DNA of 64,000 nt, taken from assembly GCA_015661395.1 (NCBI GenBank), contig JACWML010000002.1:73630-137629 (forward strand). The letters run 5' to 3'. Positions 1,181-6,813 of the stretch are shown piece by piece. The translations under genes and the position numbers were made by a program. This stretch comes from Methanomicrobia archaeon. Its GTDB lineage: Archaea; Halobacteriota; Bog-38; Methanoflorentales; Methanoflorentaceae. Below the pieces are notes generated by a model, which worked only from the letters and a program-made list of their open reading frames with translations, did not search any database and was not told the origin of the DNA. Each line of letters starts with the position of its first letter. Positions within the stretch are counted from its first letter, which is position 1.

Positions 1181-1477
1181 ATGGCTGAAAAAGAACGGAT
1201 TCCGGTCGCACCAGATGCAGTTTTTTATCATGATGCGGAAACTTACACTATTGTAGTGGAACTCCCTGGCGTCCACAAGAAGGATATCGAATTTGAAGCG
1301 ATGGAAAATGGGTTTTGTGTCACGGCACCCCGAGATGATATCAAATATAGCGGCTGCTGGGTACTCACCCACAAGACCCATCCAACAGAAGCAACGGCGA
1401 CGTTCTCGAATGGACTTTTAAAGGTGACCATACCGTTAGCTGAGCGAGTTGCAGGTTTTATGGTACCCGTTAAATAG
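1181..1477 (+). CDS. Hsp20/alpha-crystallin family small heat shock protein
   Basis: ELPGVHKKDIEFEAMENG... and NGLLKVTIPL match the alpha-crystallin domain pattern. Confidence 0.85.
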   Translation: MAEKERIPVAPDAVFYHDAETYTIVVELPGVHKKDIEFEAMENGFCVTAPRDDIKYSGCWVLTHKTHPTEATATFSNGLLKVTIPLAERVAGFMVPVK

Positions 1478-1911: not shown

Positions 1912-2391
1912 TTATTCAGGCGCAAGGACGGAATCAATAACGTGAATCACGCCACTAGTGCATTCAATATCCGCCTGAATGACTATGGCATCGTCCACCG
2001 TTAGCTCTTCAAATGCCGCGATTTCATCATCTTCTACCACGGCGTCATCTTCAACGAGCACCGTGTCCTCCTCGATGACCGCTGTCTCTGTTGCAATCGT
2101 CAGCGTCGCGCCCTGAACAGTCTTTATTGTCGTCTTTTTCATAAGGTCGGTTGCCATGTGTTTGCCGGGCACTACGTGATAGGCAAGCACTGCAGTAAGC
2201 CTGTCTTTGTCTTTTAACAATTCGTCTACCGTACCGGCAGGCAACTCGGCAAACGCGTCATCGTTCGGAGCAAAGAGCGTAAAGGGCCCAGGTCCGCTCA
2301 AGGTATCGACGAGGCCGGCTGCCGCCTTCACTGCTGATACCAGCATTGTGAAGGAACTATCATCGATTGCTGTCTCTACAATGTTTTTCAT
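1912..2391 (-). CDS. fasciclin domain protein with acidic insert
   Basis: FTLFAPNDDAFAELPAGTVDELL, LAYHVVPGK and GVIHVIDSVLAP are fasciclin (FAS1) hallmarks. Confidence 0.92.
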   Translation of the reverse strand: MKNIVETAIDDSSFTMLVSAVKAAAGLVDTLSGPGPFTLFAPNDDAFAELPAGTVDELLKDKDRLTAVLAYHVVPGKHMATDLMKKTTIKTVQGATLTIATETAVIEEDTVLVEDDAVVEDDEIAAFEELTVDDAIVIQADIECTSGVIHVIDSVLAPE

Positions 2392-2456: not shown

Positions 2457-2785
2457 AAAGATCCTCTATCTCCATTTAAGCTTACGCTATTGAGAGCAAA
2501 TGGTCTTGCAATTCGAGGCCGCAAAGCGAAGCAGCAGCTGTCCATGAAGGGTCTTGAGCGATTTTTTGGGCTTCTTTGAGGCGTTTCGGATTACAAGTCT
2601 AGCGGAAGGACAGCGACAGCAGAACATTTCGGTATTCTGTTAATAGCGTTATGAATAGCGTCGTTTTTTTTACCTGAAAGTGGCCAACGAACATACTACG
2701 AGCTGAGCCGCGAGCGTGAGGCTCACAACGGAAGAAAAAGCACAATCAAACACGCGCGAATCATCAACAAAAAAGTGAGGGTAGA

Positions 2786-2963
2786 CTCTATAGGGTATGC
2801 GAATAGCGAAAGTGATCCCTCCCAATGGTGCGTTTGAGAGCCAAGGCGAATTCGCCCGATGCTTCAGAGCAGAGGTTTTTCTGCCCCGAAAGCTCTACTC
2901 CAAAAGCCATTGGGAGTTACCTTTTCCTCCACACATCCTATAGAGCGTACATTAACTGTACGC
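2786..2963 (+). ncRNA. candidate structured RNA, family unknown (strand unproven)
   Basis: Nested complementary arms: 2786-2794/2937-2945 (CTCTATAGG/CCTATAGAG), 2819-2828/2907-2916 (CTCCCAATGG/CCATTGGGAG), 2837-2841/2892-2896; internal hairpins 2845-2856 and 2869-2884; trailing hairpin 2945-2950/2958-2963. Confidence 0.5.
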
Positions 2964-3033
2964 GCCTCTTCGATTTATACCTTTCATAGAAGCGAGCGCA
3001 ATGCACGGGTGGCAAGAAAATCCATACTAGGAA

Positions 3034-6600: not shown

Positions 6601-6813
6601 ATGGCAGAATTACAAGCAGCAGGAGTAAGTAGGATCATCCGAAAAGCTGGAGCAGAGCGCGTGAGCGCTGAAGCGACAGAACAGTTTAGAGAATACCTAG
6701 AGATGTACGGCAAAGAACTCGCCGAAGAAGCAATCGAAATGGCAAAGCACGCAGGCCGCAAGACGGTCAAAGCCGAAGACATAAAACTCGCTTTTACCAG
6801 GCTGAACCGGTAA
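6601..6813 (+). CDS. archaeal histone
   Basis: Histone fold [56 protein letters not shown]; preceded by AT-rich TATA-like element. Confidence 0.96.

Follow-up and report, generated by a model that had tools for sequence, protein, structure and literature searches.

A predicted stand-alone structured RNA gene present in two related copies in genomes of a methanogen genus, probably Candidatus Methanoflorens

Sequence comparison indicates that the minus strand at positions 2769-2949 of the analysed window (the whole 64,000-nucleotide stretch of archaeal DNA studied here) encodes a previously undescribed folded RNA of ~160-170 letters, which exists in two related copies, each with a putative promoter and stop signal. 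The best explanation for the locus, to which we assign a probability of roughly 0.8, is a minus-strand RNA gene whose product would be a trans-acting scaffold or decoy. The two parts of this reading differ in strength: we are highly confident that an independent RNA gene exists, whereas the scaffold or decoy role is a guess that falls somewhat short of even odds.

The RNA gene was found in all seven genomes of the genus that were searched, in exactly two copies per genome, namely, copy a, located in the window, and a diverged paralogue, copy b, located elsewhere. The window belongs to a 2.16-Mb archaeal assembly that is 88% complete (61-90% across the seven genomes). Based on the MAG names of its relatives (bog_38, fen_3, fen_53, SPRUCE and OWC), we judge the genus to be GTDB 'Bog-38', Candidatus Methanoflorens. 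A published study equates GTDB genus 'Bog-38' with Methanoflorens stordalenmirensis and describes it as dominant among the hydrogenotrophic methanogens of Stordalen Mire, where permafrost is thawing (PMC10805028).

Searches with blastn using a 361-base query recovered one copy a in each of five congeners, with 81-89% identity over most of the query, and the a copies of five genomes could be aligned through their flanks as well. With R1, a covariance model derived from copy a, each of six genomes yielded copy a and a second, weak match of full length, and G005 yielded a single match. Oriented by sequence, the six further matches represent the diverged paralogue b (CCUCUAUGGGUGAUGUGG...CCACAUACCCCAUAGAGC). 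A second model (R2), based on the six b sequences together with the divergent copy of G005, now read as a, recovers the window copy a at E = 4.2e-7 and copy b of G005 at E = 6e-11. Neither model matched any of 387 further genomes from the phylum (strict filters were applied in the R2 search), and 34 other genomes likewise contained no match. Among 295 sampled genomes of the phylum, the sole blastn match outside the genus is a 21-nt stretch within an open reading frame of genome G178, which appears fortuitous. The main features of copy a and its surroundings are as follows.

1181-1477, plus strand: Hsp20-like gene (Pfam HSP20), neighbour of copy a, with a relative beside copy b; genomic context only
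1912-2391, minus strand: Fasciclin (FAS1) gene (Pfam Fasciclin), downstream of the RNA; context only
2769-2949, minus strand: predicted transcript of copy a, with the start placed at ~2945-2949 from the TATA spacing and the end in the T-run at 2774-2769
2980-2985, minus strand: putative BRE (GAAAGG), present in all six aligned a copies
2973-2979, minus strand: TATA box (TATAAAT), its first T lying 34 nt ahead of the closing helix, a spacing shared by 13 of 14 a and b copies
2786-2945, minus strand: closing rod P1 with all that it encloses; outer 9-10 bp formed by 2945-2936 with 2786-2795; P1 counted over 14 copies
2819-2916, minus strand: helix P3 (2916-2907 with 2828-2819) with the enclosed head; two pairs with compensatory changes in copy a
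2861-2893, minus strand: hairpin P4 in the head of copy a, part of the consensus fold, with 98.6% paired cells
2844-2857, minus strand: head hairpin P5 of copy a, GGGCGAAUUCGCCU, consensus fold; its pairs are invariant in the six close copies and thus speak neither for nor against it
2769-2774, minus strand: T6 run, putative terminator, 11 nt beyond the closing helix

The consensus fold consists of a closing rod (P1 and P2), helix P3 and a two-hairpin head, with only small internal loops, and the closing helix is formed by an 18-19-bp inverted repeat that bounds a unit of 140-160 bp. The head differs between copies a and b, and in copy b of G005, the OWC genome (L087, 2238-2454), it is expanded by ~70 nt, with the extra bases folding into an extended hairpin. 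The original prediction described nested complementary arms at this locus, and both pairs are indeed present: the 9-bp pair joins CTCTATAGG (2786-2794) to CCTATAGAG (2937-2945), and the 10-bp pair joins CTCCCAATGG (2819-2828) to CCATTGGGAG (2907-2916). The two inner hairpins it named are also found in the sequence, but the GCGTAC/GTACGC hairpin (~2946-2964) lies outside the RNA: on the transcribed strand, it follows the TATA box and precedes the closing helix, and it belongs to the promoter region. The expectation that such a fold would be hard to obtain by chance was borne out, with energies well below those of dinucleotide shuffles on both strands of 2775-2975 (-70.9 kcal/mol, z -4.3, on the plus strand; -87.1 kcal/mol, z -7.5, on the minus strand). 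When the sequence was cut to the closing helix, the z-scores were -5.4 and -7.2 for the plus and minus strands, respectively, and folding of single copy a sequences from four genomes gave z = -7.2 to -9.4.

As anticipated, no protein-coding gene covers the RNA: the longest frame in copy a spans only ~40-49 aa, the frames are not common to copy b, and comparison with G006 shows eight nonsynonymous versus two synonymous codon changes.

The signals expected of an independent transcription unit flank the fold in both copies. Archaeal promoters carry a TATA box centred ~27 nt upstream of the start (PMC5316973), a distance that puts the predicted start close to the base of the closing helix. The distance from the TATA box to this helix is 34 nt in 13 of the 14 copies, the exception being G005a, with a weak box at 33 nt. 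Stretches of T serve as terminators in archaea (PMC7237163), and a run of at least four T is found 5-13 nt past the closing helix in all 14 copies. In oriented alignments, the conserved minus-strand block of the a copies comprises GAAAGGTATAAATCGAAG, the closing helix and then TCACTTTTTT (T4 in G001). The locus combines what is expected of a stand-alone archaeal ncRNA gene, that is, its own promoter at the canonical distance, a T-rich terminator and a conserved structure with compensatory changes, the latter observed in a modest number of independent sequences. Separately, the ~90 bases downstream of the T-run (window 2680-2768) are also conserved in the a copies and contain a TGAGCC...GGCTCA hairpin in the window; this stretch is possibly a second terminator or another element.

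Compensatory substitutions were detected in both copies, as the original prediction would require of homologues, in few and related sequences. In copy b, 9 of 42 pairs stay paired through changes on both sides, and in copy a, 2 of 62 pairs are compensated, one of which occurs as G-C, U-A, C-G and U-G. Furthermore, at one position of P1, every a copy has an A-U pair and every b copy a G-C pair. When the copy a alignment was compared with 500 shuffles, only 6 of them attained its level on three of five measures, but 113 did so for the number of compensated pairs. Overall, covariation among these few, closely related sequences from seven genomes offers support for the structure rather than proof.

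Comparison with known RNA families suggests that the RNA is new. In searches against Rfam 15, the window matched only tRNA at the gathering level, the RNA region matched no family at E <= 10, and the copy b loci matched only tRNA at E <= 5. Archaeal SRP RNA (RF01857) and RNase P RNA (RF00373) are likewise structured stand-alone RNAs, but the new RNA matches neither model, in agreement with the original reading of the sequence, and in five of the six genomes searched, both score above the gathering threshold at loci of their own, the sixth being G006, which is ~70% complete. Bacterial 6S RNA (RF00013) offers a closer parallel in form, being likewise a rod of ~160-180 nt closed by its own ends and encoded by a stand-alone gene, and some bacteria carry two 6S RNA paralogues. 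However, the new RNA has no Rfam match to this family and lacks the large central bubble; moreover, 6S RNA binds the sigma-70 holoenzyme, and archaea have no such holoenzyme. Y RNAs of the Ro RNP also share a stem closed by both ends, a 3' T-run and a variable head, but the new RNA has no Rfam match to them, and the TROVE (Ro) protein (PF05731) was not detected at E <= 0.01 in any of the seven genus genomes (61-90% complete), so that identity as a Ro/Y RNP was rejected. Among related methanogens, Methanosarcina possesses the stand-alone sRNA genes sRNA154 and sRNA162; the 387 phylum genomes, which may or may not include Methanosarcina, gave no match with R1 or R2.

The following scheme may account for these features. 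TBP and TFB would bind the BRE/TATA box, and transcription would run from the base of the closing helix into the T-run, where it would end, producing an RNA of ~170-180 nt. Comparison of the copies supports a fold in which the 5' and 3' ends of this RNA pair to close a long rod with interruptions, and a branched, two-hairpin head sits on top. The sequence-conserved rod could then provide a docking site for a protein, with the RNA being a trans-acting scaffold or decoy within an RNP and the size-variable head lending each copy a specificity of its own. The stable folding, scarcity of single-stranded sequence, conserved rod and variable head favour a candidate role in protein binding over antisense action. 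A bolder version, in which the RNA would define a new class of abundant RNP RNAs in archaea, with two specialized paralogues globally regulating a core machine (e.g. RNA polymerase, the ribosome or a chaperone) in the dominant hydrogenotrophic methanogens of thawing peat as an archaeal functional counterpart of 6S-type regulation, appears distinctly unlikely.

The alternative that retains most credit, albeit still unlikely, is a base-pairing regulatory sRNA, which would bind mRNAs through its head loops or a released strand, with transcripts of the neighbouring Hsp20-like genes as possible targets. A short Hsp20-like gene is indeed found near both RNA copies in six of the seven genomes, facing the RNA in opposite orientations at a and b, and one of four duplex tests gave a low value, with 9 of 200 shuffles at or below it. 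However, the remaining three tests were ordinary, the RNA is almost wholly self-paired, and in G005 the Hsp20-like gene lies on the contig stretch of neither RNA copy. Antisense pairing to the hsp20 starts was set aside, as no convincing signal was obtained. The proximity of the Hsp20-like gene to both copies may reflect a shared history or a functional link. The Hsp20-like proteins in question form a short, weak-scoring subfamily (~98-111 aa), with three members in the window genome, all near the two RNA loci (window 1181-1477, G000:C93:73366-73587 and G000:C86:8549-8767), and five other Hsp20 matches are located elsewhere. Farther along the window, an ORF at 6601-6813 reads, by eye, like an archaeal histone.

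The original prediction drew the functional RNA on the plus strand. Its proposal of a new structured RNA, distinct from SRP and RNase P RNA and free of a CDS, withstood the checks it named against shuffled controls, Rfam and covariation in homologues, but its strand did not hold. That the plus strand of the window locus also beats the shuffles and that copy b folds more stably on its opposite strand would fit the plus-strand reading, but we consider it very unlikely. In copy a, the TATA box and T-run are both found on the minus side, and copy b has them on the equivalent side; the minus strand of a is also the one that matches b when the latter is read from its own TATA box (R2 scores 42.3 bits on the minus strand versus 25.9 on the plus). 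Moreover, in copy a read on the minus strand, G-U cells outnumber A-C cells 56 to 7, although the structure counted was itself derived on that strand. Read on the plus strand, copy a fares worse with respect to promoter, terminator, fold and G-U evidence alike. For copy b, the reverse strand folds more stably and the G-U/A-C counts favour neither strand; its strand therefore rests on the promoter, terminator and homology to copy a and is the main loose end of the strand assignment.

The inverted repeat of 18-19 bp around a unit of 140-160 bp could also be that of a MITE-like mobile element, that is, a DNA element with terminal inverted repeats, but the chances of this are slight, given that the copy number is exactly two per genome, that the a copies of five genomes align across their flanks, that the promoter spacing common to a and b lies outside the repeat, that the compensatory changes fall inside the unit, and that phage and plasmid collections contain no match to the RNA. 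Ten pattern matches in viral contigs were discarded, none being matched by the model.

In the window and in three relatives, the FAS1 gene follows the RNA with the same orientation, but a riboswitch-like leader acting on it in cis is hardly credible, because the RNA persists in G002 and G003, where FAS1 is missing, the RNA is followed by a T-run, and copy b is followed not by FAS1 but by an ORF on the opposite strand. FAS1 separates the Hsp20-like gene from the RNA in these four genomes and is absent from the other two, which represents a gain or loss within the genus.

To our knowledge, few families of archaeal structured ncRNAs are known beyond housekeeping and guide RNAs, and the literature collection searched contained no paper on non-coding RNA of Methanoflorens. 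Metatranscriptomes from Stordalen Mire exist, making expression of the predicted minus-strand RNA gene testable without new sampling, and the alignments and coordinates obtained here enable annotation of the gene in further genomes. The candidate RNA is kept in duplicate in all seven searched genomes of a genus described as the dominant hydrogenotrophic methanogen at that site (PMC10805028).
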